Source: Oscillatoriales cyanobacterium CG2_30_44_21
Lineage (GTDB): Bacteria; Cyanobacteriota; Cyanobacteriia; Pseudanabaenales; Pseudanabaenaceae
Length of the DNA stretch: 43,933 nucleotides
Direction of reading: 5' to 3'
NCBI GenBank assembly: GCA_001873375.1
Contig: MNZA01000196.1
Location: 1-43,933 of the forward strand
Under the pieces are notes generated by a model. That model saw nothing but the letters and a program-made list of their open reading frames with translations. It ran no database searches and was not told the DNA's origin. How positions within the stretch are numbered: the first letter of the stretch is position 1; every line of letters starts with the position of its first letter. Of this stretch, positions 3,815-32,992 are shown one piece after another. A program made the position numbers and the translations under genes.

Positions 3815-4927
3815 ATGATTATTGCGAGTCCAGATCTAGTTGCCATAGCGCGATCGCAAATTGTTTTATTAACCCAAAGCTTGGGTGCAGTAGCCAGTGC
3901 CATCTACATCACGGAAAATGTAGCGGAGGGGCGATCGCCTGAGCTAGTCGAAGTTGCCATCTTTCCCGCAGGAGCAATTTCGTTACCCGAAGCCTTTCCA
4001 ATAATGACGATGGGGAGCGGTGGTCTGGTGAGGCAACGCCGATTTATATTGCCATTGATTTATGAAGATACGATCCTCGGTTTTTTGATGACGGGGCGCG
4101 ATGATCGCGATTGGTTTGATTATGAACAGTCGCAGATTCAGCAAGTCGCCAACACCTTAGCGATCGCCTGTGCCTTAGATCGCCGCAATCAATGGCTGAT
4201 GTCTAGTCAACAGCGCAATTACGAAAATCAGGCTAATTTTCTCGCATCTCTATTGCATCAACTTCGCAACCCACTTACGGCAATTCGGACCTTTGGGCAA
4301 TTATTATCAAGGCGGATCATCGCTGAAGATCCCAATCAAAAGTTTGTCACAGGAATATTGCGAGAAACTCAGCATATTCAAGACCTGCTTAACGAAGTCG
4401 ATCAGCCAGTCCCTTTATTATTGATTGAGCCAGCTTCCGATCAAGCGATCTTACCCGCCGCGACAATGGAAATTGAAGAGGTGGATTTAGTCAATGTACT
4501 GGAAGGAGTATCAAGTTTTGCCAGTGCGATCGCCCAAGAAAGAAACATTCAATTTTTGACAAACATTCCATCAAGACTGCCTCAAATATTAGGGAATGAA
4601 TCGGCTTTAAGAGAAGTAATTGGGAACTTAGTGGAAAATGCCCTCAAGTACACGTCAGAGGGTGGATATGTGCTATTGGGAACCGATGTAAAACCAGATA
4701 CTGTTCACATTTATATTCAAGATACAGGGGTCGGTATTCCTGAAGCCGATATTCCGCGCTTATTTGAGCGTAATTTTCGCGGTCGGCAAGCTGATGGCAA
4801 TATTGTCGGTACGGGGCTGGGACTGGCGATCGCCAATGACTTGGTGCAGAAGATGGAAGGTAGCATTCATGTAATCAGTGAGGTTGGGAAGGGAAGTACT
4901 TTTGCCGTAACGTTAAAACGTAATTAA
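3815..4927 (+). CDS. GAF-type sensor histidine kinase
   Basis: The protein has about 370 residues, with no membrane span and so a likely cytoplasmic sensor. Residues 1-125 look like a GAF-like input domain (ARSQIVLLTQSLGAVASAIY, then FDYEQSQIQQVANTLAIACAL). A dimerisation/phosphoacceptor helix follows with H148 in LLHQLRNPLTAIRTFGQLL. The HATPase domain has an N box (EVIGNLVENALKY), G1 (DTGVGIP), an F box (RLFERNF) and G2 (GTGLGLAIANDLV). No response regulator is adjacent. I chose ATG 3815 because a TTG-started form (3707) would place a repeat hairpin in the first codons. The stop TAA is the first triplet of the palindrome 4925-4985. The signal sensed is unknown. Confidence 0.85.
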   Translation: MIIASPDLVAIARSQIVLLTQSLGAVASAIYITENVAEGRSPELVEVAIFPAGAISLPEAFPIMTMGSGGLVRQRRFILPLIYEDTILGFLMTGRDDRDWFDYEQSQIQQVANTLAIACALDRRNQWLMSSQQRNYENQANFLASLLHQLRNPLTAIRTFGQLLSRRIIAEDPNQKFVTGILRETQHIQDLLNEVDQPVPLLLIEPASDQAILPAATMEIEEVDLVNVLEGVSSFASAIAQERNIQFLTNIPSRLPQILGNESALREVIGNLVENALKYTSEGGYVLLGTDVKPDTVHIYIQDTGVGIPEADIPRLFERNFRGRQADGNIVGTGLGLAIANDLVQKMEGSIHVISEVGKGSTFAVTLKRN

Positions 4928-4985
4928 AGCGCTAAATTCTTAGGCATCGCGGCGGAGCCGCGATGCCTAAGAATTTAGCGCTTTA
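4925..4985. repeat. 61-nt palindrome between convergent genes, ATCGCGGC core
   Basis: Left and right arms are complementary over 29 bases around a GGA loop. The left edge is the stop codon of the histidine kinase, and the right arm holds the last two codons and stop of mobA. Its A-rich/T-rich arms around a GC stem fit a bidirectional terminator. The same core occurs at 38684-38743 and 40185-40237. Confidence 0.85.
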
Positions 4986-13243: not shown

Positions 13244-13302
13244 GAACAAATAATAATTTTGAAAGCGTTGCTTTGCAACGCTTTCAAAATTATTATTTGT
13301 TC
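13244..13302. repeat. 59-nt perfect palindrome, GCGTTGC core
   Basis: Twenty-eight-base arms around a TTT loop. The inner TTTTGAAAGCGTTGC is shared with 32940-32992, while the outermost bases differ. A mini-palindrome AGCGC-TTT-GCGCT at 13224-13236 lies between it and the carA stop. Confidence 0.85.
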
Positions 13303-17605: not shown

Positions 17606-17611
17606 TTGATG

Positions 17612-17639
17612 TCAATAGCCAGCGATCGCTGGCTATTGA
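17612..17639. terminator. 28-nt perfect palindrome centred on GCGATCGC
   Basis: TCAATAGCCAGCGA is followed directly by its exact complement, with a HIP1 octamer in the middle, seven bases after the surface-protein stop. It forms a strong stem but has no T run, so termination is plausible rather than certain. Confidence 0.55.
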
Positions 17640-17688
17640 TTATTAACTGATGTTGCATAGAACCCTCACCCCTAGACCTTCTCCCCAG

Positions 17689-17719
17689 AACAAAGAAATG
17701 GCGTAGCCATTTCTTTGTT
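17689..17719. repeat. 31-nt perfect palindrome, AATGGC-GTA-GCCATT core
   Basis: AACAAAGAAATGGC pairs with its exact complement around a GTA loop. A related copy with the loop in the opposite sense (TAC) is at 36791-36825. Confidence 0.85.
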
Positions 17720-17740
17720 TAAAACCCATTCTGGGTTTGG

Positions 17741-17780
17741 TTTTCAATCCACAAAAGAGTGTCTACACGTTTGTGAATTG
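17741..17780. repeat. Dispersed repeat TTTTCAATCCACAAAA...TTTGTGAATTG
   Basis: An imperfect inverted repeat built on CACAAAA/TTTGTG. A diverged copy is at 35247-35286, and both are preceded by a similar AAAACC...GGTTTG segment. Each lies about 45 bases before a gene start. Confidence 0.6.
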
Positions 17781-17825
17781 GTATTGAACAAAATTATCTA
17801 AATTTTTTGAATTTAGGAATTGATT

Positions 17826-18404
17826 ATGAAAAAACAATTGTTTGGCTCCTTGAGCCTAGTCGCTACGTTGGCTATTCTCCCGATCGCCATTTTCCCCGCG
17901 ATCGCTAACAGCTCATTGGGTAATCAGCAGCAAAGTAATTTGCGCGTTGCCCAAAATCAGCAACGCCCCGTAGCCCTGTTACTTTCAGCAGAAATCAAAA
18001 AAACTAGCCGTGATGCTGACGGCAAAGAGGTGGTGGCATGGAATCAGTTGCCATCTAACCCGAAAGTTGTCCCTGGCAGCGTTTTGCGCTATACGGTCAC
18101 GGCAGAAAATACGACCAATCGCAATATGCAAAATCTGTCGGTAACGCAGCCAGTACCAGGCGGCATGGTTTATGTCATCCAGTCGGCAACCAAGGCGAGT
18201 GCCGATAATGCCAGCGTTGACTTTAGTATTGATGGCGGCAAGAGCTTTAGTCCCAAGCCTGTGGTCAGAGTGCGCGGTCGTGATGGCAAGGTGGTAGAAC
18301 GCCCCGCTCCCCCTGAGGCATATACTCATGTGCGTTGGAACTTTGGCGAAACTTTGTCCGCCAATTCACGGACGCAGGTTTCCTATCAGGTACGAGTTAA
18401 ATAA
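17826..18404 (+). CDS. Exported single DUF11-domain protein
   Basis: The 192-residue protein has a signal peptide (MKKQLFGSLSLVATLAILPI...AIANS) and one DUF11 beta-sandwich: AEIKKTSRDADGKEVVAWNQ, VPGSVLRYTVTAENTTNRNM, SVTQPVPGGMVYVIQSA and the final strand TQVSYQVRVK. ATG 17826 is chosen over the TTG at 17820 because AGGA (17815-17818) is well spaced for it. It is the first of the close-packed surface genes, with 47 bases to the next start. It is likely a periplasmic or surface subunit, perhaps the small component of a fibre. Confidence 0.8.
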   Translation: MKKQLFGSLSLVATLAILPIAIFPAIANSSLGNQQQSNLRVAQNQQRPVALLLSAEIKKTSRDADGKEVVAWNQLPSNPKVVPGSVLRYTVTAENTTNRNMQNLSVTQPVPGGMVYVIQSATKASADNASVDFSIDGGKSFSPKPVVRVRGRDGKVVERPAPPEAYTHVRWNFGETLSANSRTQVSYQVRVK

Positions 18405-18451
18405 TTTCTAGCTTCCTAAAGGCTTCTGCTTGCATACTTTGTAGGAATTTG

Positions 18452-19975
18452 ATGAACAAGCGATCGCTCAAAAATACATTGCAGCGCTGGAGTTTTCGCT
18501 TTGGAGTGTGGTTTTGCAGCATTTTAGTCTGCATTAGCTTAACCAATGGTGCTGTTTTGGGGCAGGCGCGAAACTTTAACCTGAATAATCGGGGAAGCGC
18601 CTCCTATGAAGCACTTGGGGATGGCTCAACCGTGCCGCTCAACGCAACTTCAGACTTAAATGTAATTAATGGCGATCGCCTCATCGATCCTTTAGGACAA
18701 ATCTTGGACTGTGGCGGCAATGAGTTTGCTGATTACACTGGCTTTTCAGTGGGTCTTTTTGAATCTAAGGCTGATGGCGTGGGGGATGTGGGTGCATTGG
18801 TGAAACTAACTCCCACCAATCCGCCCAACACTGTTGTCCCCGAGGGAATCGTTCCCAACATTTTGAACAGCAATCCCTACTCAGTGACAAATGCTCCCGT
18901 CAATGGCAGACGTGGCGTTTATAATTTTTTGCTGAGTACAGAAAAGGTCAATGGAAAGAGTCAGATTGACGTAGGACAGACTTACATTTTGCTGATCAGT
19001 GCGCCTACTAGTTTGGGCGTAGCCGATAGACTGGTGCAGCTAAAAATCCTTAGTAACGTCGATGGTGTGCTTTCCTATGTCGCTTCATCTTTGGATGGTC
19101 GCCCCATTGGCGCAGATGGATTATTTACGACAACAGGCAATGTGCTGATCAAAAATGCCGAACAGCAGCCTCTATCGCTAATTGCTTTGCAATTGAACGC
19201 GGCTTCCTGTGAGACGCGCGAGTTGCAGATTATCAAAACTGGCGATCGCGCTGCTGCCGAACCAGGAGATATTGCTTCCTATCGGTTAGCGATTAAGAAC
19301 CTCACTAAAACTGTTCTCAGTAATATCAAAGTTGCTGATACTCTGCCCCTTGGATTTAACTATGTGCCTAATTCCGCGATCGCCGCTTTTCGCGGTAGTC
19401 GTGTTCCTGTCGTAGTCACCGAGAGTGGGCGCAATCTGGGCTTTGAAGTTCAAACCGATTTAGCAGTGGGATCTGACGAGATTCAGCTTGCCTATGCAGT
19501 GGCAATTACTCCCGATGCTGTCAGAGGTTCGGGACGCAATGCCGCGATCGCCTCAGCCAAGCGGAGCGACAATCCCAACATCGTGCGCGATGGTCCTGCT
19601 ATTTTTACAATGCGAATTCGCCCAGGTATCGTTTCTGACTGTGCAACTTTGATCGGGCGCGTCTTTGTCGATAAAAACTTTGATGGTGAGCAGCAAAATG
19701 GCGAACCTGGAGTACCTAATGCGGTGATTTATATGGATGATGGCAATCGTATTGTCACCGATGCCAATGGTATTTATTCAATGGCAAACGTGATTCCTGG
19801 CTCCAGAACCTTGGCTTTGGACATTAGTTCCCTGCCAGGATATACCCTCGCTCCCAACCTATATTTCATTGAGCGCAATAGCCAATCGCGCTTAGTCCGT
19901 CTCGCTCCTGGTGGTTTAGGCAGGGCTAACTTTGGCGTGACCCCTGCATTTAGGGGTGTGGAGGGTCAAAAATGA
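18452..19975 (+). CDS. Exported protein with DUF11 and SdrD-type B domains
   Basis: The 507-residue protein has an N-terminal signal peptide (...SILVCISLTNGAVLGQ/A). Residues about 35-250 form an unassigned beta-rich region. A DUF11 domain follows (ELQIIKTGDRAAAEPGDIAS, SNIKVADTLPLGFNYVPNSA). Near the C-terminus lies a Ca-binding SdrD B-type module: GRVFVDKNFDGEQQNGEPGV, then VIYMDDGNRIVTDANGIYSM. ATG 18452 follows a TAGGAA site. Its stop overlaps the next gene as ATGA at 19972-19975, which indicates coupled translation with the barrel protein and argues that they act together. Confidence 0.85.
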   Translation: MNKRSLKNTLQRWSFRFGVWFCSILVCISLTNGAVLGQARNFNLNNRGSASYEALGDGSTVPLNATSDLNVINGDRLIDPLGQILDCGGNEFADYTGFSVGLFESKADGVGDVGALVKLTPTNPPNTVVPEGIVPNILNSNPYSVTNAPVNGRRGVYNFLLSTEKVNGKSQIDVGQTYILLISAPTSLGVADRLVQLKILSNVDGVLSYVASSLDGRPIGADGLFTTTGNVLIKNAEQQPLSLIALQLNAASCETRELQIIKTGDRAAAEPGDIASYRLAIKNLTKTVLSNIKVADTLPLGFNYVPNSAIAAFRGSRVPVVVTESGRNLGFEVQTDLAVGSDEIQLAYAVAITPDAVRGSGRNAAIASAKRSDNPNIVRDGPAIFTMRIRPGIVSDCATLIGRVFVDKNFDGEQQNGEPGVPNAVIYMDDGNRIVTDANGIYSMANVIPGSRTLALDISSLPGYTLAPNLYFIERNSQSRLVRLAPGGLGRANFGVTPAFRGVEGQK

Positions 19976-22900
19976 AGCCTCTAAATTTCTTGTTCAAGTT
20001 TGGTACGCTTAAAACTATTGGGCTGCTGGCGATCGCCTCATTCATTTTTGCAATTGAGGCGAATTCGGCGGTGATCGCCAGTGACTTGAGCGATCAGCCT
20101 AATTTAACCAGTGAGCAAGTTCCATCATTAAAACCGAACTTGTTAGCCGATAGCGGCAATAATCTCCCTAACTCCCCACTTCCCACTAACAACTCCCCAC
20201 TCCCCACGCCTGAAACCAATCCTGAACCGACCAGCCCCAAAACTGTACCGCAAATCTTGATCCTTTCGCCGAGTATGGATACCCTCAGCGATGTTCCTGC
20301 GGTGACGGTAATTTTGCGCTTGCCCATTGGCGCTGAGGCGGAACTCATGGTAAATGGACGCACAGTCAATAACAACGCCATTGGGCGGACTGATGTGGAC
20401 ACTACCGCTAAGACTGTTACCCAGACTTGGTACGGTGTGGTTTTGGATGAAGGCGAAAACGTAATCACTGCCAAAATTATCGGCGGTGAGGCGATCGCCA
20501 CGACTAGGGTAAAGCTGCGCGGCGCGGCGACCCAACTACAAATCAGTACCCTAGAGTCGCGCATCCCCGCCGATGGACGCAGTACTGCCACCGTGCAAGG
20601 GCTACTCCTCGATGAAAAGGGCGATCGCTCTAACCGTGGAGCCATGATTACCCTGACCGCTAGCGATGGCGAATTTATCGGTACAGATGCCCAAGCCGAC
20701 CAACCAGGTTTTCAAGTCGAAGCCAGAGATGGGCAGTTTTCGGCATTACTCAAATCTAGCCTTACTTCGGGCTATGCCAGAATTCGCGCCACCGCTAGAT
20801 TTAACAATCGCGAAGCTGAAGCCTTTACGCAGTTACAGTTTGAAACTAATCTCCGTCCTTCCATCGTCACGGGGGTGATCGATTTACGCATTGGCGCAAG
20901 GGGAACCGACTTCTATCGCAGTTTCCGTGATTTCTTACCCAGCGATCGCGATAATTCCACCAATGTCGATTTCTACGCCGCCGCCTTCGGCACGGGGAGT
21001 GCCGGTGAATGGCTAATCACAGGCGCACTGAATACCCGTCGTTCTCTCAATGAGGATTGCGAAGGTCGCAGCCGTCTATTTCGGGATACGCAGTCTTGTC
21101 AGCAGGTCTATCCTACTTATGGCGACAGTTCCACTTACACTACCGAAGCTCCATCTTTAACTAGCGTTTTCCTCAGAGCCGAGCGCACGTCACCCGTTCC
21201 CAATGCTGGAACTGACTACTTGATGTGGGGCGACTACCGCACTTCCGAATTTGCCAGCCGATCTCAAGAATACACTGCCTTTACCCGCCAGTTAAATGGT
21301 TTAAAACTGAACTATAACTTTGGTGACTTGCAAGCTACTGGATTCTATAGCAGCAATACCAAGGGCTTTCAACGGGACATCATTCCTCCTGATGGCACTA
21401 GCGGCTTTTACTTCCTATCGCGGCGCTTAGTCACCCCTGGCAGTGAGAATGTATTTATTGAATGGGAAGAAATATTGCGTCCAGGGACAATTGTGCGGCG
21501 GGTGCAATTGGAACGCAGTAAGGACTATGAAATTGATTACGATCGCGGTTCTTTGCAATTTCGCCAACCGATCTCCCAAACTGACATTGGCGACAATGGC
21601 GAAACCCTTGTGCGAAGAATCGTCGCTTCCTATGAGTACGATAATGAAAATGGCTCTACCAATAGTGTTTACGGCGGGCAACTGCGCTATAACTTCCAAA
21701 GAAATGCTGACCAGCCCAGTTGGTTAGGGGTGAATTATTACAAGGAAGACCAAGGCTCACGGGACTTTCAACTCTATGGCGCAAATGCCCTCTTTTCCTT
21801 TGGGCGCAATGCCTATGTAATTGGTGAATATGCGCGTTCTGAAAATCAATCGCTAGACCTTGCTGCGCCTGTGTCTGGCTCCGCCCTGCGCTTTGAAGCA
21901 ATAGCCGAAGTGGCTCAAGGCATTATGGCGAGAGGCTTTTATCGCCAGACCGATACAGGCTTTGTGAATAATGCCACAATTAGCTTTACCCCAGGGCAAA
22001 CCCGCTATGGCTTGAGTGTCGATGCCAAATTAAGTGATTCCACGACCCTCCGCGCCGCCTACGATCGCGAAGAAAATCGGGGAATTGCGCCGCAGCCCTT
22101 TACCCTGACAAGTTTCCTCGAGCTTAATCCCCAATCCACTCCAGGTTCCCCTGTTGACAACAGCCTCAGCACCTTTAGTTTTGGATTGATCCAAAAGCTA
22201 GGCTTTGCCACCGCCGAGTTAGATTTGCTGATGCGCGATCGCCAAGATTTTCTGAATAATTCTTTTACCAGTAACTCCACACAATTGCGATCGCGCCTGA
22301 CGCTGCCCCTTGCTGACAACCTCAAATTCATCGTTCTCAATGAAACGAGCCTATCCAATTCCTCCGACTCGGTGCTGCCTGATCGCACGGCTCTATCTTT
22401 AGATTGGCAATTTATCGAAGGCTTTAGCTTTCGATTGGGACAGCAATGGTTTAATAGCGGCGTTCTCGCTAACAATAACTTCACCACTGCCGAAGTGGTG
22501 GGTGACTACAAGCTCGGCTCCGACACCACCCTGTCAGGGCGCTATTCCATTGTCGGCGGCGCAAATAGCACCACCACTCAAGGCGCGATCGGCTTAAATC
22601 AACGTTGGGCGATCGCCCCTGGATTACGGCTAAATCTCGGTTATGAAAGGATTTTTGGAGATACCCAAGTTGCCAACGCCTCAGGTCGCCAAGTGCTGCA
22701 ACCCCTGACCACTGGCACAAACACTTCCACCTTGGCGCTCCAAAGTGGCGATAATTACAATATTGGACTGGAATATTCCGATAATCCTGACTTCAAGGCA
22801 AGCGCTCGCTATGAGTATCGCAACTCTAGCACAGGCTCCAATACGGTGCTGAGTGCCTCGGCGCTGGGTAAACTCACGCCCGCCCTCACTTCACTATTTC

Positions 22901-25257
22901 GCTATCAGCGATCGGGCGTAGCCAACCAAACCATTAATAATTTTGGTGATACTTCCAGCATTAAGCTAGGGCTTGCCTACCGCGATCCTAATAATGACTC
23001 GCTCAATGCCCTGCTGCGCTATGAATATCGTCAAAATCCCAGCACAATTCCCAATACCTTAGCCAGTGGCTTTGGTACAGGCACAGAGGAATCAGTCCTT
23101 GCCCTCGAAGCCATCTATGCCCCAACTTGGCAATGGGAATTTTATGGTAAGTACGCCTTTCGCAACAGCACCACATTTATCGCCCAAGATTTTGTCGGCA
23201 ATTCGGTGATCAACTTAGCCCAACTCCGCGCCACCTATCGTCTGGGCTATAACTTCGACTTGACGGGAGAAGCAAGGCTGATCAACCAACCCACGGCAGG
23301 CTTTAGTGAAACGGGCTTCTTAGGAGAAGTTGGCTATTATCCCACCCCAAATTTGCGCTTGGCTCTGGGCTATAGCTCGGGCGCGGTAAATAATGATCGC
23401 GACTTTAGCGGCACGCGATCAGCTGGTGGCATCTATGCCGCCGTGACGATCAAGTTAAATGAGCTATTTGATGGTTTCGGCTTGCAACGCCTTGAAGCGC
23501 CCCAGTACAAGGAACCCGTTGATCCGCAAACACCGATCACCCTCCCTACGGTCAATAAGCCCACTAACCCCGCCACGCGGATTTCCCAAGCTCCTCCCAC
23601 TCCAGAAATGATGCGGATTGCCCTAGCGCAGCCGATTCAATTCCCCTCTTATCAAGCTAATCTTTCACCGATTAGCCAAGTTATCCTCGATAACTTGGTG
23701 CTAGTGTTGCGCGAATATCCCGCCCTGAATATCGAAGTGCAAGGAAATCTGGCTTCCCTCAGTCAAACTGGTACAGTCGCGAGTACGGAAGTGCAGCGCT
23801 TGGGCTTAATCCGCACTTACCTACTAAATAATGGCATTACAGCGGGGCGCGTCACTATGCGATCGCTGGGAGCCGCCGCGAATCCAGAGGCAGATGCTGA
23901 AGTTTACCTAAGCATTGGCGGTACTAGAGACACCTTTGCCCAGATTGCTAATCGCCTTGCCCAAGGACAAGGCAATGCGGCTTTGCAAAGTCTCTTACCT
24001 GACATTGCTAAGCAGGAAAATATTAACCCTGTTGCCGCGGTAAATGTGCCGCAGGTAGCCGCGATCGCGCAGGTGATCGAATTTGCGCCGATCGGTAAAA
24101 TGACCGATGTTAGCAATGCCAACCTTGATGCTTTGATTAAGCGGGTCGCCGATCGCGCTGACATTGCCATCGAAATTAAGGGCAATCTGGATGGCTCGGA
24201 GCTAGAGGTGAATCGCTTGATGGGCTTACGCAGCTATCTATTGCAAAAAGGCATCAGCAGCGATCGCATTTTAATTAGTAATAGTGATGGTCAAACACAG
24301 GCAAATCGAGTCACCGTTACCCTTGCCAGCCTAGAGGGCTTGCCGATCGCCAAATTGCCTGATGACTTGCCTGACAATAAGCTCGTCGATGTCCCAAGCG
24401 TACTGACTCCCGTTGTCCAACGCGATCAACCTGCTAATGCCACCAGTACAGGCGATCGCGCCAATAATGACAGAGCCAATAACAACCGTTTCAGCTTGTT
24501 ACTTAGAGACGAATCTAAACTTGATGCTCAGCTATCAGGTTTCACAGTTAGTCAGTTCAGCTTTAGCGGTAATGCTCTTCCAGTTGGTGAAAGTTTAGGC
24601 GAGAACTTTAGCCTTAATGATTTGGAAATTAATGACCTAGCCCAAAGCAGTTTCTTCCTGCTCGGTCAATTGCTCGATCTTGACAAGCGCCTTGCCCTAT
24701 TGCCAAGACTGCCCAAACAAGAAAATATCTTTAACAGCCCTGTCCTCTTTACGGACTTTAACGATCAAAATATTCTCTCCTTTACCCCGATTCCCAATCT
24801 CTTGCTAGGACAACTGCTCGATCCTAATACCCGTCAGCCCCTTGCGCTTCTGCCGCCCAATCTATTGCCTAGCACGCAACTGTTTAACTCACCCCAGATT
24901 CTCAGCTTACTCCTTGACTCATCGCGGTTCTCCTTCCTAGTCAGTGCCGCCACCACAAGCGAAAACCTGCCAAGATTTAGCTTCCCTAATGCCAGTGCCG
25001 ACACTTCGGGCATTCTCTGGTCTTACCAGCCCACCGACCAACTACTATCTTTGCTGCTCACCGAACCTAAGACCCTTGTTTCCAATAGCAATACCCCCGA
25101 TCTTCGCACTCAGCGCTTTATCTCGGCTTTAAATTTCTTACTGAACCGCGATCGCGATTCAGTCCTAGCTTCATGGCTCAACTCCCTCAATGGTCAACAG
25201 TCTGAGATTCGTGGTGAGCTGATTAAGCCCGAATTGTTTGAGGAGGCAAAACTATGA
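19972..25257 (+). CDS. Giant predicted outer-membrane beta-barrel with invasin-type Ig and OmpA-like domains
   Basis: The 1761-residue protein starts with a signal-like hydrophobic segment and a Pro-rich linker (residues about 60-85). A first beta domain (ILILSPSMDTLSDVPAVTVI...ENVITAKI) precedes a Big_1/invasin-like Ig domain (about 183-300: LESRIPADGRSTATVQGLLL, GAMITLTASDGEF). Residues about 302-1165 are alternating amphipathic strands typical of an outer-membrane barrel, including the motif RSKDYEIDYDRGSLQFRQPI and a last strand GGIYAAVTIKL. Two degenerate OmpA-like domains follow (about 1215-1310 and 1364-1455), then a Leu-rich tail with a repeated LLGQLLD unit. No TonB box or plug domain is visible. 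It is ATGA-coupled on both sides. I infer an outer-membrane anchor or translocation channel for the neighbouring DUF11 proteins. Confidence 0.8.
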   Translation: MKPLNFLFKFGTLKTIGLLAIASFIFAIEANSAVIASDLSDQPNLTSEQVPSLKPNLLADSGNNLPNSPLPTNNSPLPTPETNPEPTSPKTVPQILILSPSMDTLSDVPAVTVILRLPIGAEAELMVNGRTVNNNAIGRTDVDTTAKTVTQTWYGVVLDEGENVITAKIIGGEAIATTRVKLRGAATQLQISTLESRIPADGRSTATVQGLLLDEKGDRSNRGAMITLTASDGEFIGTDAQADQPGFQVEARDGQFSALLKSSLTSGYARIRATARFNNREAEAFTQLQFETNLRPSIVTGVIDLRIGARGTDFYRSFRDFLPSDRDNSTNVDFYAAAFGTGSAGEWLITGALNTRRSLNEDCEGRSRLFRDTQSCQQVYPTYGDSSTYTTEAPSLTSVFLRAERTSPVPNAGTDYLMWGDYRTSEFASRSQEYTAFTRQLNGLKLNYNFGDLQATGFYSSNTKGFQRDIIPPDGTSGFYFLSRRLVTPGSENVFIEWEEILRPGTIVRRVQLERSKDYEIDYDRGSLQFRQPISQTDIGDNGETLVRRIVASYEYDNENGSTNSVYGGQLRYNFQRNADQPSWLGVNYYKEDQGSRDFQLYGANALFSFGRNAYVIGEYARSENQSLDLAAPVSGSALRFEAIAEVAQGIMARGFYRQTDTGFVNNATISFTPGQTRYGLSVDAKLSDSTTLRAAYDREENRGIAPQPFTLTSFLELNPQSTPGSPVDNSLSTFSFGLIQKLGFATAELDLLMRDRQDFLNNSFTSNSTQLRSRLTLPLADNLKFIVLNETSLSNSSDSVLPDRTALSLDWQFIEGFSFRLGQQWFNSGVLANNNFTTAEVVGDYKLGSDTTLSGRYSIVGGANSTTTQGAIGLNQRWAIAPGLRLNLGYERIFGDTQVANASGRQVLQPLTTGTNTSTLALQSGDNYNIGLEYSDNPDFKASARYEYRNSSTGSNTVLSASALGKLTPALTSLFRYQRSGVANQTINNFGDTSSIKLGLAYRDPNNDSLNALLRYEYRQNPSTIPNTLASGFGTGTEESVLALEAIYAPTWQWEFYGKYAFRNSTTFIAQDFVGNSVINLAQLRATYRLGYNFDLTGEARLINQPTAGFSETGFLGEVGYYPTPNLRLALGYSSGAVNNDRDFSGTRSAGGIYAAVTIKLNELFDGFGLQRLEAPQYKEPVDPQTPITLPTVNKPTNPATRISQAPPTPEMMRIALAQPIQFPSYQANLSPISQVILDNLVLVLREYPALNIEVQGNLASLSQTGTVASTEVQRLGLIRTYLLNNGITAGRVTMRSLGAAANPEADAEVYLSIGGTRDTFAQIANRLAQGQGNAALQSLLPDIAKQENINPVAAVNVPQVAAIAQVIEFAPIGKMTDVSNANLDALIKRVADRADIAIEIKGNLDGSELEVNRLMGLRSYLLQKGISSDRILISNSDGQTQANRVTVTLASLEGLPIAKLPDDLPDNKLVDVPSVLTPVVQRDQPANATSTGDRANNDRANNNRFSLLLRDESKLDAQLSGFTVSQFSFSGNALPVGESLGENFSLNDLEINDLAQSSFFLLGQLLDLDKRLALLPRLPKQENIFNSPVLFTDFNDQNILSFTPIPNLLLGQLLDPNTRQPLALLPPNLLPSTQLFNSPQILSLLLDSSRFSFLVSAATTSENLPRFSFPNASADTSGILWSYQPTDQLLSLLLTEPKTLVSNSNTPDLRTQRFISALNFLLNRDRDSVLASWLNSLNGQQSEIRGELIKPELFEEAKL

Positions 25258-27293
25258 AAAACCTGATTACCCTAACAACGGTGCTGCTCGTGGGTAGCAG
25301 TTTGAGTACATTGCCATCGGTGGCGCAATCTTCCTCTAAGCCGCGCCAGTTTTTAGCGATCGCCGTCAATAGCGCCCTTGATAACGACCTACGCGATCAA
25401 GTGATCACCCTACGGGAAGCGATCATGCTTGCCAATGGCACATTGGCAGTTGATCAACTCACGGCAACTGAAGCCAAGCAAATTAGTGTGAGTCCCCAAC
25501 AACAAAATCCCCAACGCCATTACATTGACTTTCGGGAATTAACCGATCCCAAAATTCTATTGCAAAGCGCATTGCCAGACTTGATCGCACCGATCGCTAT
25601 CGATGGCACAACCCACCCTGAATATCAAAGCGATCGCGGCTTTTCTGTGGAGATTCTCATTCCTAAGCCCGTGGTCACGATTACCCCTGCGCCGCAAGTG
25701 GCGATCGCCCGTGGGCTAAGCATTACCAACGATAATGTGCTTATCAAGGGCTTGAGTATTTACGGCTTCAACTCGCGCCATTATGAAACTGCCGTGACTC
25801 CCCTTGGCGATATCTTTATTTCCCATCGTCTGCCGCCTCCTGCCCAATCTTCGCCCTTCCGCGATCGCCCCGCCAGTCGCGTGATCGTTGAGGATAATTG
25901 GCTCGGTATTGCCCCCGATGGTTCTATGCCTGCCCAGCCCTCTGCTTTTGGCATCTATCTCTTTCATGGCATCCAAACCAATATCAGCCGCAATCGGATC
26001 GCCAATCATCAGGCAAGCGGCATCATTACGGCGGTGGATAGTCGTGATAGTGTGATCCAGCAAAATGTGATTGAAGGCAATGGCTTTGACGGAATGCCCG
26101 ACGGTATTCGCTTAGAAGGCAATATCGACAGAATGCAGATTAGCTCCAATATTATTTGTGGCAATGCAGGATCGGCGGTATTTCTATTTAAACCAGAAGG
26201 CGCGATTAGAGTGCAGGACAATTCGATTAAGCTCAATTCCCGCATCTATCGCCGCTCGGCAATTCACTTGATGGGGCGCGGACACATTGTGTCGGACAAT
26301 CGCATTAACAATCAAACTGGCTCAGGTGTCACCGTGGCAGGTTTCCCAGCCAGCGATCGCAATATTATTCGCCGAAATCAATTTCAATTCATCGAAGGCT
26401 TAGATATTGATCTCATCCATCGCCGCAATGTCGGCGAGCGCGATTTTCGGGTGGGCGATGGGCGCAACCCTAAGCGCGATTCCTATTACCGCCGCGTAGA
26501 TACGGGCAATGCTGCCATTAACAGCCCTGAATTTCTTGCTAATGTCTTTAATCGCATCGATGGCAAAGTTGGCATCGATGGCATCGCTGACCCTAATACC
26601 GAAGTGGATATCTATCGAGTGCGCGGTAAGGGACTTTCAGAATTGCTAATTACGGTCAAAGCCGACTCTCAAGGCAAATTTAGCCATCGATTTGACAATC
26701 TCGAAGCGGGCGACACCCTCAGCGCGATCGCCACTGATCCAGAGTTCGGTACATCGGAAACCGCCTACCATGTCCGCATCGCCGAACTCAATCAACCTGT
26801 CCCCGTGAGACCGCCCGAAACCAGTCCGCCACCCCAATGCACCACGCCGCCACCACCTGTGGCGATCGCGCCACCACCGCCCACCGTGCCGCCCACTTTG
26901 CAACTGCCGCGCCAAGTCCACTTTGCTCTCGATGAGGACTTCATCAGCAAAGCTTCCGCAAAAGTCCTAGATAAAATCATCACGGCGCTCAATTCCTATC
27001 CGACGATCACCCTTGAGCTAGTCGGTCACACCGACCCCAGAGCCACTGATGCTTACAACATTGAACTTGGATTGCGCCGCAGTCGCTCGGTCAGCCGCTA
27101 TCTCCGCAATCAAGGCATTGCTCCAGAGAGGATCGTGGTGCGATCGCAAGGGGAGCGCCAACGACTCACCAATCAAACCGATGTCGTTAACTATGCTCGC
27201 GATCGGCGGGTGGAATTTTTTCTCTTTGACCTTCAAGGAATCGAAATCCAGTTAATCGACCAACAAGAAGACATCCAAATCGAAGGTAAATAG
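25254..27293 (+). CDS. Exported right-handed beta-helix protein with C-terminal OmpA domain
   Basis: The 679-residue protein has a signal peptide (MKNLITLTTVLLVGSSLSTL...SVAQ). A CSLREA-like entry motif VITLREAIMLANG is followed by parallel beta-helix rungs at residues about 150-400 (NISRNRIANHQASGII, SVIQQNVIEGNGFDGM, MQISSNIICGNAGSAV). An Ig-like domain (about 430-510), a Pro-rich linker (about 515-555) and a full OmpA C-terminal peptidoglycan-binding domain follow (VHFALDEDFISKASAKVLDK, ELVGHTDPRATDAYN, LRRSRSVSRYLRNQGI, DRRVEFF). This suggests a protein tethered to peptidoglycan with a helix reaching outward. Start and stop overlap or abut the barrel and glycine-rich genes. Confidence 0.87.
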   Translation: MKNLITLTTVLLVGSSLSTLPSVAQSSSKPRQFLAIAVNSALDNDLRDQVITLREAIMLANGTLAVDQLTATEAKQISVSPQQQNPQRHYIDFRELTDPKILLQSALPDLIAPIAIDGTTHPEYQSDRGFSVEILIPKPVVTITPAPQVAIARGLSITNDNVLIKGLSIYGFNSRHYETAVTPLGDIFISHRLPPPAQSSPFRDRPASRVIVEDNWLGIAPDGSMPAQPSAFGIYLFHGIQTNISRNRIANHQASGIITAVDSRDSVIQQNVIEGNGFDGMPDGIRLEGNIDRMQISSNIICGNAGSAVFLFKPEGAIRVQDNSIKLNSRIYRRSAIHLMGRGHIVSDNRINNQTGSGVTVAGFPASDRNIIRRNQFQFIEGLDIDLIHRRNVGERDFRVGDGRNPKRDSYYRRVDTGNAAINSPEFLANVFNRIDGKVGIDGIADPNTEVDIYRVRGKGLSELLITVKADSQGKFSHRFDNLEAGDTLSAIATDPEFGTSETAYHVRIAELNQPVPVRPPETSPPPQCTTPPPPVAIAPPPPTVPPTLQLPRQVHFALDEDFISKASAKVLDKIITALNSYPTITLELVGHTDPRATDAYNIELGLRRSRSVSRYLRNQGIAPERIVVRSQGERQRLTNQTDVVNYARDRRVEFFLFDLQGIEIQLIDQQEDIQIEGK

Positions 27294-27320
27294 AGCAGGT
27301 AAAAGGGAAGTGACTTGAAT

Positions 27321-30269
27321 ATGGCAAAGAAATGGCAGAGTGCAATCATGCAATTATCTAAATCCAGCAAAATTTTTAAGATATTCCTTCAATTCTTTGT
27401 TGTGTTTTCCAGATGTATGGGGATGATCTCTAACTCAATTAGAAAATTACTTAATCGACTATTTACCAAAAATCACTCTTCATCATCAACGCCCAGTTCA
27501 CGAAGAGCAGAGCAGAAGTATATCAGTCGTCCCAAAACTTACCAGCCAAATCATGTTTCTCTGACAGCGTTCTGTCTGCTCATTTTATTCTTTACCTCAC
27601 AATTAATTTTCCTAAATCCTGCTTACGCAGTTCCCGATGTTTGCGGCACACCAGGCAAAGACAACCCTACGGCACTCACAAATATTGTGAATACCTACTA
27701 TCCAGGTATAGCCGCCACAGCATCGAGTGGAGCGACTTCCATCGCGATTGGAGCGGCCAATACTGGGGCAGTCACTCCGATTACCACAGGGGATTTATTG
27801 CTGGTTATCCAGATGCAAGATGCCTCAATTGACTCTAGCAATAGTGATGCCTATGGGGACGGATTCGCGGGCGGAAATGCCAGTGGTTTTACCAGTTTGC
27901 GTACCGCTGGAGCCTATCAGTATGTAGTTGCCACCAATGACGTTCCCCTAAGTGGCGGAACGGTCGGTCTCTCTCAGCCCCTCGCCGAAACATTCACAAA
28001 TGCCGATGCGACAAGTTTTGATGGACAGAGACGCTATCAAGTCATTCGTGTCCCTCAGTACGCCAGTGCAACTATCAGTTCCACTGTGACATCCTTTGCT
28101 TGGAACGGTCGAATTGGTGGAGTCGTGGCTTTGGATGTTGCGGGTGACTTGACTTTCTCAGGCGGAACAATCGATGTGAATGGGCAAGGGTTTCGTGGCG
28201 GCGGTGGTACAAACCTAGGTGGTGATGGCTCAGGCACGGCAGCGAACTTAGCATCCCGAAATAGTGCTTTTGTTCACCCCGCTCCACTGGTTACGGGAAT
28301 TGGATCTGCTGGAGCTCCCGTAGGACCTAATAATTATGATGGCTCTAAGGGAGAAGGAATCGCTGGTACACCCCGTTACACCAGAAACGGTGGATTTCCT
28401 CCTGTTACAGATGTAACAGATAACTTGGTAGAAGGCTATCCGCAAGGCAGTTTCTCACGAGGCGCACCAGCAAATGCAGGCGGCGGTGGAACCGATCCCA
28501 ACAAAGGGAGAAATGCTGCCAACACTGGTGGTGGTGGTGGTGCAAATGCAGGTGCAGGTGGTAAAGGCGGGGACTCTTGGACGGACAACAATTTCCCTGT
28601 TAAAAGACAACCATTTGGTGGATTCGGTGGAACTGGAGTTTCCCCATCAGTAAGTCGAATATTTCTCGGCGGTGGTGCTGGTACTGGTACTTCTAACAAT
28701 GCGGTTGGCTCTCCGCCCGCACAAAGAGTTCCATCGGGCGGCGGCGGCGGCGGCATGGTAATTGTCCGCAGTGGGCGCATTCTGGGCAGTGGCACTATTA
28801 ATGCAGATGGAATTCAAGGCGTAGCACCCTCAAATACTGATGGCGGCGGCGGCGGTGGTGCAGGTGGCACTGTCCTCATCCAGTCGGTTACAGCTTCCAC
28901 TCCATCTATTTCCATTAATGCTAGAGGTGGCGCAGGACTAAATTCGGGAAACACACAGCATGGACCTGGTGGCGGCGGTGGCGGTGGATATGTTGCCTTT
29001 CAGGGCTTTACACCAGCAACAAATGTTAGTGCTGGTGTTGCTGGTTTCGCTTTGACTGGCGGTTTTGGCAGTACACCTTCGACAGATAACTACGGTGCAT
29101 TGCCAGGTTCGCCTGGGGTTGCCGAATCAACGGCAATCCCTGCGGCTGAGGTAAAACCGGGAGCTTTATGTTTACCCATCCTGACGGTGACGAAAACTAC
29201 GAGTACTCCAACTGTTGTCAAGCCGCCTTCAGGTACAGCAACGGCTACTTATACGATTACTACTAACAATCCAGTCACCAGTCCTGCTACCAGTGGCAGC
29301 GCCATAAATGTAGCCATATCTGACCTGTTACCTTCTGGCTTTACCTATCTATCAACAACCTCGGTGACTCTCAATGGAGGCGCGACCAGACCAGTCACAT
29401 CGACCCCAGCCGTTGGAAGTCCAAACCCTACATTTGGAACTTTTACGATTCCGCCTGGGGGAGGTGTCGTAATTACCTTTGATGTGGAAATTGCCGAAGC
29501 GGTAGCTCTAGGCACATATCAAAACCCTGCTACGGCAACCTACTCAGATCCAACTCGATCAGCATCTGGTACAACTACTTCAGCATCCTATGATCCTGCA
29601 TCGAGTACAGGTGAAGATGTGACACTTATTCCACCTGCTCCCAAACTTATATTGGTTAAGCGGATTACTGCTATTAATGGCACTAACATTAACGGTAATG
29701 TGGATGATATTAATACTACCGATGATGACATTACGAATAACTGGCCCACTCCATTAAGTGACTCGCTAAGAGGCGCACTTTCGCAGACAAATATCCGTCC
29801 TAAAGATGAAGTGGAATACACAATCTATTATCTGAATATTGGTTTTAACGCTGCCAATAATGTCAGGATTTGTGATCCTATACCTGCAAATACGCTCTAT
29901 GTTGCTAATGCTTTTAATGGCTCCTCGCCTACTGATGGCGGACTGTCTGCGGATTTGGGGATTGTGTTGCAGACAGGGACAGATAGTCTAAACGATCGCC
30001 GATTTTTGACGGGTATTAATGATGGCGATCGCGGTCGCTATTATGATCCAACTATTGGCGAGGTCACACCTAGCACGGGTAGCGATCGCTGTGTCCAACC
30101 CGATAACCCCAGTTCGGCAATCGACACCAATCCCAACGGCATTGTCACGGTGAATGTCACCGATACCCAAGCACTCACACCAATATTTCCATCTGTGCCT
30201 AATGCCACAAGTGCAGGTGTACCGACTAGCTCTTACGGATTTGTGCGGTTTAGGGTCAGGGTCAAATAG
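27321..30269 (+). CDS. Glycine-rich adhesin-like protein with DUF11 domains
   Basis: The 982-residue protein has a signal-type hydrophobic segment that begins only at about residue 74 (LTAFCLLILFFTSQLIFLNP, then AYA/VPD). It is preceded by a long basic lead containing a second hydrophobic patch (IFKIFLQFFVVF). The region 230-560 is dominated by runs of five to seven glycines between short hydrophobic strands. A DUF11 domain (SAINVAISDLLPSGFTYLST) and a second, more divergent one (DEVEYTIYYLNIGFNAANNV) follow, and the protein ends GFVRFRVRVK. ATG 27321 is preferred to TTG 27315. It lies 27 bases after the OmpA protein gene and is probably the last gene of the unit, since two palindromes follow. 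Confidence 0.8.
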   Translation: MAKKWQSAIMQLSKSSKIFKIFLQFFVVFSRCMGMISNSIRKLLNRLFTKNHSSSSTPSSRRAEQKYISRPKTYQPNHVSLTAFCLLILFFTSQLIFLNPAYAVPDVCGTPGKDNPTALTNIVNTYYPGIAATASSGATSIAIGAANTGAVTPITTGDLLLVIQMQDASIDSSNSDAYGDGFAGGNASGFTSLRTAGAYQYVVATNDVPLSGGTVGLSQPLAETFTNADATSFDGQRRYQVIRVPQYASATISSTVTSFAWNGRIGGVVALDVAGDLTFSGGTIDVNGQGFRGGGGTNLGGDGSGTAANLASRNSAFVHPAPLVTGIGSAGAPVGPNNYDGSKGEGIAGTPRYTRNGGFPPVTDVTDNLVEGYPQGSFSRGAPANAGGGGTDPNKGRNAANTGGGGGANAGAGGKGGDSWTDNNFPVKRQPFGGFGGTGVSPSVSRIFLGGGAGTGTSNNAVGSPPAQRVPSGGGGGGMVIVRSGRILGSGTINADGIQGVAPSNTDGGGGGGAGGTVLIQSVTASTPSISINARGGAGLNSGNTQHGPGGGGGGGYVAFQGFTPATNVSAGVAGFALTGGFGSTPSTDNYGALPGSPGVAESTAIPAAEVKPGALCLPILTVTKTTSTPTVVKPPSGTATATYTITTNNPVTSPATSGSAINVAISDLLPSGFTYLSTTSVTLNGGATRPVTSTPAVGSPNPTFGTFTIPPGGGVVITFDVEIAEAVALGTYQNPATATYSDPTRSASGTTTSASYDPASSTGEDVTLIPPAPKLILVKRITAINGTNINGNVDDINTTDDDITNNWPTPLSDSLRGALSQTNIRPKDEVEYTIYYLNIGFNAANNVRICDPIPANTLYVANAFNGSSPTDGGLSADLGIVLQTGTDSLNDRRFLTGINDGDRGRYYDPTIGEVTPSTGSDRCVQPDNPSSAIDTNPNGIVTVNVTDTQALTPIFPSVPNATSAGVPTSSYGFVRFRVRVK

Positions 30270-30272
30270 TCC

Positions 30273-30301
30273 TTAAAAGCGTCGCTAAGCGCCGCTTTTA
30301 A
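30273..30301. terminator. Hairpin after the surface operon
   Basis: TTAAAAGCG(T)CGC pairs with GCG(C)CGCTTTTAA with one mismatch, four bases after the stop of the glycine-rich protein gene. The T-rich right arm fits a terminator. Confidence 0.6.
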
Positions 30302-30355
30302 AAATGTCGATATTAAAAAAGTGGAGCGAAGCCTCACTTTTAAATATCGACATTT
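30302..30355. repeat. 54-nt imperfect palindrome with GAA loop
   Basis: AAATGTCGATATT and its complement form the outer stem, with AAAGTGGAGC/GCCTCACTTT inside. It directly abuts the preceding hairpin without spacer, like the pair at 41392-41476. Confidence 0.75.
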
Positions 30356-30387: not shown

Positions 30388-32196
30388 ATGTATAGCAAAA
30401 GTCCAGACAATCTCAGCTTTAATCCCCTCGATTTATTGCAAAATCTTTTAGCTAAAAATTACGATTTAGTCTCCCAACAATTTATTGAAATCCTTGAACA
30501 TTTTGATCAAAATACATACTTAGAGTTGCCTAATGATTCAAGATATTTTGTTAATGCCTTTGTTAAAAATTTTTTATATATCTTTACTCAATCGGACTAT
30601 TTAATTAGCGATCGCTATGTAGAAAGACTAATTCAATTTAACCTGACCATTTCTAATCTTGTCGCAATTTCTGATTTTAAAAGCACTGATCCCTATTTGG
30701 AAATATTAAAAAATCAGCCTCAAAACTTCGCAAAAATCTTAACTTTATGTTCTGCTAGAAATAGCTTTAAATTTCAACGTCGTGATTTTTTTAACGCTAG
30801 CCCTGCCTTGGCAAACCTTTGGTATTCTTGCTACTTGGAGATTTATCGCACAGGTTTAGTTAACCGAATTGTCTATCAAAATCTTAGAGAGCATTTAGTC
30901 TACGAAGATGAACGCTTAACTGATTTCTATAAAATTGATGACTTATACTTTGGTGCAACCTACATAGACGGAGATAGCGATCGCTTTCTCAAATCCAAAA
31001 TCAATCAATCAATTCAAAACAGTAACCTGATTAAAAATCTAGTTATTTATAATCAACCCAACCCGCGTAAAGTTGCCATAATTTCAGGACTATGGCTCCC
31101 AGCACATTCTGTTTATCGCATTCTGTCCGATTGCATTGCTTCGCTGAAAGATGATTATGAACTTACCTTAATTCATCTAGGCGATCGGCAACTTGAGATC
31201 GATCAGCAACATTTTCAAGATGTTAAATATTTGCAATTCCAAAATAACCAACTTGATATTAGTAGCATTCAAAATAATGATTTTAATGTTGTTTACTTCC
31301 CTGATATCGGAATGTCAGCGCAAAGCATTCTGCTTTCCAATTTAAGGATTGCTCCCATTCAAATCTGTGGGTTAGGGCATCCTGTGAGTACATTTGGTAG
31401 TGAGATTGATTATTTTATAAGTGGTGCTGATGCGGAGGTAACTCGCAACGCAGAGGTTAACTATTCAGAGCGCTTAGTTCTGCTCAATGGACTGGGTGCG
31501 GTGAATAATCACCCAAATTATCAATCTAAACAGAGTTTGGATATCAAAACTTTGCGAGATGCTACCGATGGCAAGTCGCAATTTATTATCAATTGTCCTT
31601 GGTATGCCCAGAAAGTCAACTATCCGTTACTGATTTTATTGAAAAAAATTGTTCAAGATTCTAAGCGACCTATTTTATTTCGCTTTTTCTCAGGCGGTGG
31701 TTTGATTCGCAAAAATGATTTTCTGCCCTTTGTCCATGAAGTTACTCAAGTGCTTGGTGTGGAAAACGTGAAAGTCTATCCCTACCTTCCCTATCAAGAA
31801 TATATGACGATTATGGAAGAAGGTGATATCTGTCTTGATTCCTACCATTTCGGCGGATTTAATGTGATTATTGATAGCCTATTCCTTCAAAAACCAACCG
31901 TTGTCTTTGAAGGCAAGCGTTGGTATAGTCGTGCTGGGGCGAGGCTGATCAAAAAAATAGGACTGGGCGATCTGGTTGCCAAAAATCCAACGGAATATAC
32001 TCAACTATCTCTCAAGTTGATTAATAACCATGATTTTCTATGGGAAATGCAAGAAAGAGTCAGACAAATTGATCTTAACGGACTTGTCTTTCAGTCAACC
32101 AATAGTCAATATTTCAAGAAAGCAATTGATTTTCTCATCCAAAATCATGAGTATCTTAGAGGCGATCGCTCGCGTAAACCAATTAGAATTTCCTAA
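30388..32196 (+). CDS. GT41-like (OGT/HMW1C-type) glycosyltransferase
   Basis: The 602-residue protein has no signal peptide and so is probably cytoplasmic. Residues 1-225 are mostly helical and unassigned. The C-terminal half has a two-Rossmann glycosyltransferase pattern: RKVAIISGLWLPAHSVYRIL (about 228), VVYFPDIGMSAQSILLSNLR, APIQICGLGHPVSTFGSEID, and a donor-site region DICLDSYHFGGFNVIIDSLF...PTVVFEGKRWYSRAGARLIK. This is the style of O-GlcNAc transferase and of HMW1C, which glycosylates adhesins before export. It follows the surface-protein genes directly, so glycosylation of those proteins is a reasonable inference. The gene looks more AT-rich than its neighbours. The stop lies at the edge of a repeat element. 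Confidence 0.75.
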   Translation: MYSKSPDNLSFNPLDLLQNLLAKNYDLVSQQFIEILEHFDQNTYLELPNDSRYFVNAFVKNFLYIFTQSDYLISDRYVERLIQFNLTISNLVAISDFKSTDPYLEILKNQPQNFAKILTLCSARNSFKFQRRDFFNASPALANLWYSCYLEIYRTGLVNRIVYQNLREHLVYEDERLTDFYKIDDLYFGATYIDGDSDRFLKSKINQSIQNSNLIKNLVIYNQPNPRKVAIISGLWLPAHSVYRILSDCIASLKDDYELTLIHLGDRQLEIDQQHFQDVKYLQFQNNQLDISSIQNNDFNVVYFPDIGMSAQSILLSNLRIAPIQICGLGHPVSTFGSEIDYFISGADAEVTRNAEVNYSERLVLLNGLGAVNNHPNYQSKQSLDIKTLRDATDGKSQFIINCPWYAQKVNYPLLILLKKIVQDSKRPILFRFFSGGGLIRKNDFLPFVHEVTQVLGVENVKVYPYLPYQEYMTIMEEGDICLDSYHFGGFNVIIDSLFLQKPTVVFEGKRWYSRAGARLIKKIGLGDLVAKNPTEYTQLSLKLINNHDFLWEMQERVRQIDLNGLVFQSTNSQYFKKAIDFLIQNHEYLRGDRSRKPIRIS

Positions 32197-32274
32197 GTAG
32201 CTCGGGCTTAATTAAACCTAAAACCAGAGGTTGTTCCGCCCACGTAGCGGGCGGAACAACCTCTGGTTTTAGGT
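32193..32274. repeat. Palindromic element with CTAAGTAGCTC...TTAATTAA end, copy 2 (loop inverted)
   Basis: Begins CTAAGTAGCTCGGGCTTAAT, overlapping the stop of the glycosyltransferase gene. The stem 32216-32274 is perfect in its long arms. The centre reads GCCCACGTAGCGGGC, the reverse complement sense of the CTACG loop in the other four copies. Confidence 0.8.
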
Positions 32275-32314: not shown

Positions 32315-32623
32315 GTGATTACACTCCACTTGCTGCACCCCATCGAACCTAAACCGATTCAAACATGGAAATTTGAGTCCGAGTCTGTGATCCTTATCGG
32401 CAGATCGGGGGATAATCACATAATTCTTTATAGTTCAGTTGTCTCTCGATATCATGTTGAACTACATCGTCATTCTTTAAATTGGCAAGTTGTCAATATT
32501 GGCGCAAATGGAACTTATATAAATGATCATCAAGTTGACAAAGAGCTTGTTCAAAATGGAATGACGATAAGGCTAGCGGCAACAGGACCTAAAATTCAGA
32601 TTTTTCTAAGTAGCTCAACATAA
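32315..32623 (+). CDS. FHA-domain protein
   Basis: The 102-residue protein is essentially one forkhead-associated domain, which binds phosphothreonine peptides. The signature residues are present: G29-R30 in LIGRSGDNHIIL, S44-R45 and H47 in VVSRYHVELH, and N65-G66-T67 with N70 in NGTYINDH. The start is GTG at 32315. The last five residues (LSSST) and the stop codon are encoded by the end of the repeat element that begins at 32606, so the original C-terminus may have been different. A Ser/Thr kinase partner is not in the window. Confidence 0.85.
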   Translation: MITLHLLHPIEPKPIQTWKFESESVILIGRSGDNHIILYSSVVSRYHVELHRHSLNWQVVNIGANGTYINDHQVDKELVQNGMTIRLAATGPKIQIFLSSST

Positions 32624-32702
32624 TTAAAACCCGAAACCAAGAACGTTGTTCTGCCCGCTACGCGGGCAGAACAACGTTCTTGGTTTTTAGGTAGCTACTT
32701 AG
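32606..32702. repeat. Palindromic element with CTAAGTAGCTC and GTAGCTACTTAG ends, copy 3
   Basis: Both terminal sequences are present (CTAAGTAGCTC at 32606-32616, GTAGCTACTTAG at 32691-32702). A stem at 32634-32686 is centred on GCCCGCTACGCGGGC. The left end overlaps the last codons of the FHA gene. Confidence 0.85.
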
Positions 32703-32822: not shown

Positions 32823-32877
32823 CAAAAACAGAAGATGAGTTGCGGCGGTTTGCGCCGCAACTCATCTTCTGTTTTTG
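32823..32877. repeat. 55-nt palindrome, GCGGCG core
   Basis: CAAAAACAGAAGATGAGTTG leads into GCGGCG, a five-base loop and the exact complement of the arm. Confidence 0.85.
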
Positions 32878-32939: not shown

Positions 32940-32992
32940 CCAAGAATAATTTTGAAAGCGTTGCGAAGCAACGCTTTCAAAATTATTCTTGG
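32940..32992. repeat. 53-nt perfect palindrome, GCGTTGC-GAA-GCAACGC core
   Basis: Twenty-five-base arms around GAA. The inner AATTTTGAAAGCGTTGC matches 13244-13302, but here the outer arm is CCAAGAAT and the loop is GAA instead of TTT. Confidence 0.85.

Follow-up and report, generated by a model that had tools for sequence, protein, structure and literature searches.

A GT41 glycosyltransferase beside DUF11 genes in Pseudanabaena belongs to a lineage found in both cyanobacteria and tailed phages

The GT41 gene and its surroundings

The window, by which we mean the whole 43,933-nt stretch of DNA analysed here, contains an intact open reading frame of Pseudanabaena that starts with ATG on the plus strand (30388..32196) and encodes a 602-residue glycosyltransferase of family GT41, hereafter P0001. 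Its upstream neighbour is a DUF11 protein gene (27315..30269) at the end of a block (14987..30269) that encodes DUF11/DUF7925, barrel and OmpA proteins. Between the DUF11 and GT41 genes lies a nested palindromic element (30273..30355, inverted repeats I1-I4), composed of a palindrome at 30273-30301 and nested arms at 30302-30355, and the GT41 gene is followed by a perfect 26-nt inverted repeat (32216..32274) that resembles a terminator on the minus strand. An FHA-domain gene (32315..32623, plus strand; PF00498, 52 bits) comes next. Palindromes between the genes had been noted in the initial annotation and are borne out at these positions; its suggestion that the gene is transcribed apart from the DUF11 block also appears sound, and with an upstream gap of 118 nt that is largely palindromic, separate transcription is probable. 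Across the 44-kb window we counted 19 perfect palindromes, whose arms measure 16-29 nt and which mostly have 3-nt loops and share core motifs; examples lie at 2880-2940, 3621-3679, 4925-4985 and 13244-13302 in the first half, and at 32216-32274, 32634-32686, 32823-32877 and 32940-32992 in the second.

The FHA gene adjoins the GT41 gene in three of the six carrier genomes (that of the window, G010 and G024) and is the sole neighbour kept in close relatives, with the outer flanks of the pair differing on both sides in all three. Its own context is fixed in all 12 of the other Pseudanabaena genomes read, where the gene is nearly universal. The link between the two genes is therefore weak, since FHA is a core gene elsewhere and the three carriers of the pair are nearest kin.

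Family, domain plan and donor site

The C-terminal half of P0001 matches Glyco_transf_41 in Pfam (PF13844, 46.7 bits against a cut-off of 25), which places the protein in GT41, and no TPR family, of the kind that forms the N-terminal domain of OGT and SPINDLY, matched up to E = 1 (Pfam). Residues 48-112 score 14.9 bits against HMW1C_N (PF18071), below its cut-off of 27, and the NCBIfam NGT equivalog NF049992 gives 117.2 bits where 1000 is the cut-off. In a sequence search of the PDB, ApNGT/AaNGT chains ranked top (8j30 and 3q3e, 85-88 bits), with OGT and SPINDLY at about 42 bits; a profile search with an 8-row alignment widened the gap (NGT 133 bits, SPINDLY 50 bits). These scores agree with the initial annotation, which had described the C-terminal half as resembling HMW1C and OGT, and profile and structure comparison carry the likeness to HMW1C/NGT beyond that half, into the N-terminal all-alpha domain. 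Judged by sequence, the reading frame is confirmed as a genuine GT41 enzyme, closer to HMW1C/NGT than to OGT, and these comparisons place it outside the HMW1C/NGT equivalog; in the trees described below it forms a separate sister lineage.

Hhalign, AlphaFold2 and VIA-align delimit an N-terminal all-alpha, AAD-like domain (about residues 1-220; 30388..31047, plus strand), and alignments to AaNGT together with residue counts delimit a catalytic GT-B part towards the C-terminus (about residues 225-590; 31060..32157, plus strand). With hhalign, 12 cyanobacterial members aligned to three NGTs (Caballeronia, Paraburkholderia and cyanobacterium G385) over residues 20-574 (probability 99.9, E 3.6e-36). 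An AlphaFold2 model built from 34 rows (pLDDT 90.1, pTM 0.89) is helical up to about residue 216; it supersedes an earlier model from 8 rows (pLDDT 78), and the phage rows in the alignment (see below) lifted the model's confidence from 78 to 90, as true relatives should. VIA-align superposed the 34-row model on AaNGT (8p0q) with Z 36.2 over 566 aligned residues at 3.3 Å (model residues 4-591), on SPINDLY (8dtg) with Z 35.9 over 444 residues at 4.5 Å, and on T. terrenum OGT (5djs) with Z 35.8 over 435 residues at 4.1 Å. On Z alone the three tie, and it is aligned length and coverage that set NGT apart in the model comparison; with the weaker first model NGT had been clearly ahead in VIA-align (28.5 versus 20.2). 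By hhalign, VIA-align and Pfam, P0001 thus has the HMW1C/NGT plan of an all-alpha domain followed by GT-B, with no TPR.

According to the available text of PMC10507012, AaNGT contacts UDP through H276, S277, R280, T437, K440, H494, S495, Y500, N520 and D524 and its peptide through R177, H214 and D215, with R177A and D215A inactive. All nine donor-site residues tested are identical in P0001: H240, S241, R244, G330 and H331 align with H276, S277, R280, G369 and H370, and K409, Y472, N492 and D496 with K440, Y500, N520 and D524. P0001 D185 aligns with Asp215 of AaNGT, which reads the sequon (Ser/Thr at +2). Conservation extends across the cyanobacterial rows, with D185, K409, G330 and Y472 present in 12 of 12 and N492, R244, S241 and H331 in 11 of 12; the divergent copy of G031, not among these rows, has lost K409, N492 and D496 and has E at the D185 position. 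R154 of P0001 falls within one or two columns of AaNGT R177 in three alignments, and R is found there in 10 of 12 cyanobacterial rows. Other positions have changed: H214 is replaced by D184, T437 by Y406, H494 by Y466, S495 by L467 and Q468 by Gly. Because H214, T437, H494 and S495 differ, the donor base and the acceptor may differ from those of AaNGT. The lineage would supply natural enzymes with an altered pocket, having Gly at the Q468/Q469 position, where an Ala mutant of ApNGT is described as more active (PMC10507012, available text).

In a catalytic-domain tree of 36 rows, which omits L031, a short OGT-like row of 239 aa, the 13 cyanobacterial members of the P0001 lineage form one side of a branch (support 99/96), and these 13 together with three NGT rows are separated from 20 other cyanobacterial GT41s (100/99), labelled here as putative OGT_TPR; the program flagged long branches where the P0001 lineage and NGT join in this tree. 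When phage rows were included, cyanobacterial and phage sequences stood apart from the NGT rows (100/100), and the cyanobacterial, phage-A and phage-B lineages met in an open fork (tree without G031). Phylogeny against HMW1C and OGT had been put forward in the initial annotation as a check: the trees group P0001 with NGT, subject to the long-branch warning at that join, and put it in a sister clade, outside the NGT clade itself.

P0001 shares with the HMW1C/NGT enzymes (ApNGT, 3q3e/8j30; AaNGT, 8p0q) its family, an all-alpha plus GT-B build, a length of about 600 aa, most donor-site residues and the sequon-reading Asp, but differs from them in its low identity (about 20%), its 117 of 1000 equivalog bits, its separate clade, the replacement of H214, T437, Q468, H494 and S495, and the lack of an adhesin or TPS partner alongside. 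With OGT and SPINDLY, the GT41 enzymes that carry TPR, it has the GT-B catalytic fold and the PF13844 match in common, but it shows no detected TPR, another N-terminal domain and a weaker sequence match (about 50 versus 133 bits). An O-glycosyltransferase that acts on Ser/Thr acceptors, like OGT or SPINDLY, from an NGT-like scaffold would agree with GT41 otherwise consisting of O-GlcNAc transferases (PMC3983070, available text), with the tie of SPINDLY and T. terrenum OGT on Z, and with the changes at the uracil-stacking H494 and S495 and at the peptide residue H214; given the missing TPR match, the preference for NGT in sequence and full-length coverage, and an unbroken sequon-reading Asp in the cyanobacterial rows, we regard it as rather unlikely.

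Distribution and the neighbouring surface proteins

Full-length copies occur in six of 26 Pseudanabaena genomes (G000, G001, G003, G010, G014 and G024) and a fragment in a seventh (G018); the gene was also found in one genome of the same family (G031) and in one more distant genome (G043). Among 386 cyanobacterial genomes drawn evenly, six matched at E <= 1e-35, including the window's own genome and, in G385, a different NGT of canonical type. A scan of genome contigs with a single-sequence pattern recovered only the 89% orthologue, because such patterns are narrow, and a plasmid search for relatives returned proteobacterial HMW1C-like matches only.

In other genomes the immediate flanks of the gene are unrelated to one another, being RbfA/ExbB-like in G024 and G001 and PriA-like in G003 as read from sequence; further neighbours are DNA polymerase I and condensation-domain genes (G220), SNase (G178), an M50 peptidase (G257), and PqqD and Transglut_core3 (G043). 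In G043 (L044:11306-14617) the GT41 part forms a fusion with a methyltransferase domain that precedes it, and the gene comes after those for PqqD and Transglut_core3, a set presumably reminiscent of peptide natural-product clusters, and in G220 (L149:7400-12441) a condensation/PapA-like acyltransferase gene lies between two GT41 gene copies.

Such patchiness within the genus, the fragment and the changing neighbours could indicate a recently acquired passenger gene that is functionless in this host, and the gene does have the lowest GC (36.0%) and GC3 (32.3%) of the 26 window ORFs of at least 150 aa. Its GC3 is also the lowest in G010 but ordinary in G003, G001 and G014, so that base composition gives no clear sign of a foreign origin. 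With the frame intact in all six carriers at 66-89% identity to P0001 and the active-site residues kept, a functionless passenger is exceedingly improbable.

The initial annotation had proposed that the neighbouring DUF11 proteins are the enzyme's substrates. In fuller form, a dedicated HMW1C-like enzyme would N-glycosylate the adjacent DUF11, barrel and OmpA proteins before export, a scheme prompted by the adjacency in the window, by the HMW1C-type architecture of P0001, and by the composition of the block, which is as rich in Asn and Thr as had been stated (N 7.4% versus 4.0% and T 8.7% versus 5.0% in the other window proteins of at least 150 aa). It would also accord with the HMW1C-type genes of Caballeronia and Paraburkholderia, which adjoin adhesins. 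These were retrieved with the same query and sit in adhesin loci, implying that true linkage shows where it is present.

At the GT41 gene of P0001's relatives, no block protein was found at eight of eight other loci within the 3.5-51 kb of DNA retrieved (six Pseudanabaena loci, one of them with the gene fragment, one from the same-family genome and one from the more distant genome). All five other Pseudanabaena genomes with the full-length gene have it away from the DUF11 block: in G024 the GT41 and barrel genes share a contig at a distance of about 0.94 Mb, and in G001 and G014 they are on separate contigs. The block itself, in the order DUF7925, DUF11(194), DUF11(508), barrel, OmpA, AgmC/DUF11, is present whole or in part at ten of ten relatives' loci, with no GT41 gene alongside. 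This arrangement (window 14987-30269) is conserved in Pseudanabaena, and its last gene varies most, in both length and sequence.

Co-occurrence with the barrel gene, which the initial annotation had set as a check, gave no positive association across the 26 Pseudanabaena genomes (both genes in 4, GT41 gene only in 2, barrel only in 18, neither in 2; one-sided Fisher p = 0.97). No barrel gene was found in the carriers G003 and G010, and 18 of the 20 non-carriers possess one, so that the distribution is unlinked to the surface block, the very outcome that had been named as speaking against the proposal.

N-X-S/T sequons point the same way. The six block proteins contain 53, against 59.3 expected from shuffled sequences, and pooled block density is 1.32 per 100 aa in carriers versus 1.54 in the others (block rows below 150 aa dropped; G018, with the fragment, and G031, with the divergent copy, counted as non-carriers). 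The power of the sequon test is limited: of four adhesin-like proteins encoded next to HMW1C-type genes, the Paraburkholderia ESPR protein (166 versus 67 expected) and the G385 passenger (69 versus 48) are enriched, but a Caballeronia protein (30 versus 28) and a second Paraburkholderia protein (20 versus 17) are not, and the locus edge truncates both of the Paraburkholderia proteins. With synteny, co-occurrence and sequon counts all against it, the DUF11 block was dismissed as substrate; the adhesin partnership is not supported and in our view very improbable, and rearrangement accounts best for the adjacency.

Nor does the gene fit an HMW1-type system (TpsA-TpsB-HMW1C), as it neither adjoins nor co-occurs with an adhesin and pore; the single TPS protein of this genome is on another contig. 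TPS proteins were considered as substrates and set aside as not discriminating, their domains occurring in 24 of 26 genus genomes and the genome's own protein having 6 sequons versus 8. Orphan NGTs (the class of A. pleuropneumoniae, H. ducreyi and K. kingae) similarly have no substrate gene alongside, as the available text of PMC3983070 describes them; they are close to HMW1C in sequence, which the P0001 lineage is not. Since HMW1C-like enzymes without substrate neighbours form a known class in that account, standing apart from a substrate gene does not speak against NGT-like activity.

HMW1C-type adhesin loci were met elsewhere in the searches. On contig C222 of G385 (L197:1-8106), a canonical-type NGT (NF049992, 575 bits, below the cut-off of 1000) lies divergent from a 1948-aa PATR autotransporter-passenger gene, the sequon-enriched passenger above, and the two plausibly form an HMW1C-adhesin pair in a cyanobacterium. 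The HMW1C-like genes in the adhesin loci of the Paraburkholderia sp. PREW-6R plasmid (NZ_CP155076.1, L196), whose ESPR-type neighbour has the 166 sequons noted, and of Caballeronia grimmiae (NZ_CP084273.1, L194) are annotated 'peptide transporter'.

Phage relatives and proposed function

Scanning IMG/VR with the 12-row alignment yielded 15 relatives at 28-38% identity over most of the protein, and a rescan with 12 of those 15 raised the number to 33 virus contigs with full-length relatives, the first 15 included. Independent cases are fewer than 33, because at least four pairs of loci have nearly the same gene order (L217/L219, L226/L227, L238/L245 and L243/L244). The phage proteins align with NGTs, N-terminal domain included (hhalign 100%, E 4.3e-47). 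P0001 and two phage members found no relative in 50,697 named phage records (tblastn), two phage GT41s tested had no match in PHROGs, and a BFVD structure search gave no full-length match, the best being partial (TMq 0.41). Phage glycosyltransferases of BFVD and PHROGs share the GT-B fold in part. Nor was the lineage found among the matches listed in literature on HMW1C/GT41/NGT, cyanobacterial and phage glycosylation, and DUF11, subscription papers lying mostly outside that coverage.

In 26 of the 33 viral loci the GT41 gene is immediately preceded, on the same strand, by a gene of about 390 aa; the three such proteins tested all match Methyltransf_23 and two also match Methyltransf_14 (C-methyltransferase). 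A DNA helicase gene is common to 22 viral loci and an exonuclease-like gene to 25, and the methyltransferase-linked GT41 genes sit in a replication/nucleotide module. Of two contigs of this type that were read in part (124.7 kb and 80.6 kb), each has genes for a terminase large subunit and a portal, with a tape measure in one and a major head protein in the other. The terminase family PF03237 was not found in the 14 phage records searched; the terminase, portal, tape-measure and head families of the two contigs read were recognised with PHROGs. In five of the seven remaining loci, the GT41 gene sits in a capsid module made up of terminase, portal, head-morphogenesis, protease or head-protein genes. 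Head-module proteins were rejected as candidate acceptors, the 25 proteins adjoining the phage gene showing no sequon excess.

K409 and G330 are kept in 22 of 22 phage rows. At the D185 position, group B has E in five of five rows and group A mostly P, G, V or A, with D in 2 of 17; R244 is K in 16 of 17 group A rows. Acceptor recognition in the phage members probably differs, because D185 and R244 are replaced.

With the fold, domain plan, donor-site residue set, lineage, patchy distribution and lack of linkage to the DUF11 block established, we favour on balance a soluble, probably protein-modifying GT41 hexosyltransferase, from a lineage of cyanobacteria and tailed phages, that came to lie beside DUF11 genes by rearrangement. 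As its sequence and model suggest, P0001 would be a stand-alone, probably cytoplasmic inverting GT-B enzyme. It would transfer a hexose from a nucleotide sugar, most likely UDP-hexose, to the side chain of a protein, possibly using the alpha-phosphate as base in the way modelled for AaNGT. In the cyanobacterial members the receiving residue is predicted to be Asn, favoured because the sequon-reading Asp (D185) is invariant in their 12 rows, and the acceptors would not be specially the DUF11/barrel proteins.

A non-protein acceptor (a glycan, a peptide natural product, a nucleotide or a nucleic acid) would suit the C-methyltransferase-like gene upstream of most viral copies in their replication/nucleotide module, and the methyltransferase fusion beside PqqD and Transglut_core3 in G043. 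Such an acceptor nonetheless seems unlikely to us, given that the all-alpha domain, which carries the NGT peptide site, is retained and that the gene lies among head proteins in 5 of 33 viral loci.

Within the protein-modifying reading that we favour, we tentatively suggest that this third GT41 lineage, of HMW1C-like build, may be a phage cassette for modifying virion or host proteins, paired with a C-methyltransferase or lying within the capsid module; the sugar might be small and possibly methylated, and the cyanobacterial copies may have been exchanged with phages in either direction. Most work on HMW1C-type one-step cytoplasmic glycosylation of proteins concerns a few proteobacterial pathogens, and its use as a tool for making glycoproteins has been suggested (PMC3983070, available text). 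A separate full-length lineage in cyanobacteria and uncultivated tailed phages would, if true, widen the range of this chemistry, and phage biology would gain a methyltransferase-linked gene that is a candidate for protein glycosylation. The locus also counsels caution, in that substrates are not readable from one neighbourhood and the adjacency is kept in no relative examined; the phage relatives of the enzyme are of greater interest than its gene neighbours. Two of the viral loci (L206:2905-6803 and L217) hold two tandem GT41 copies behind one methyltransferase.
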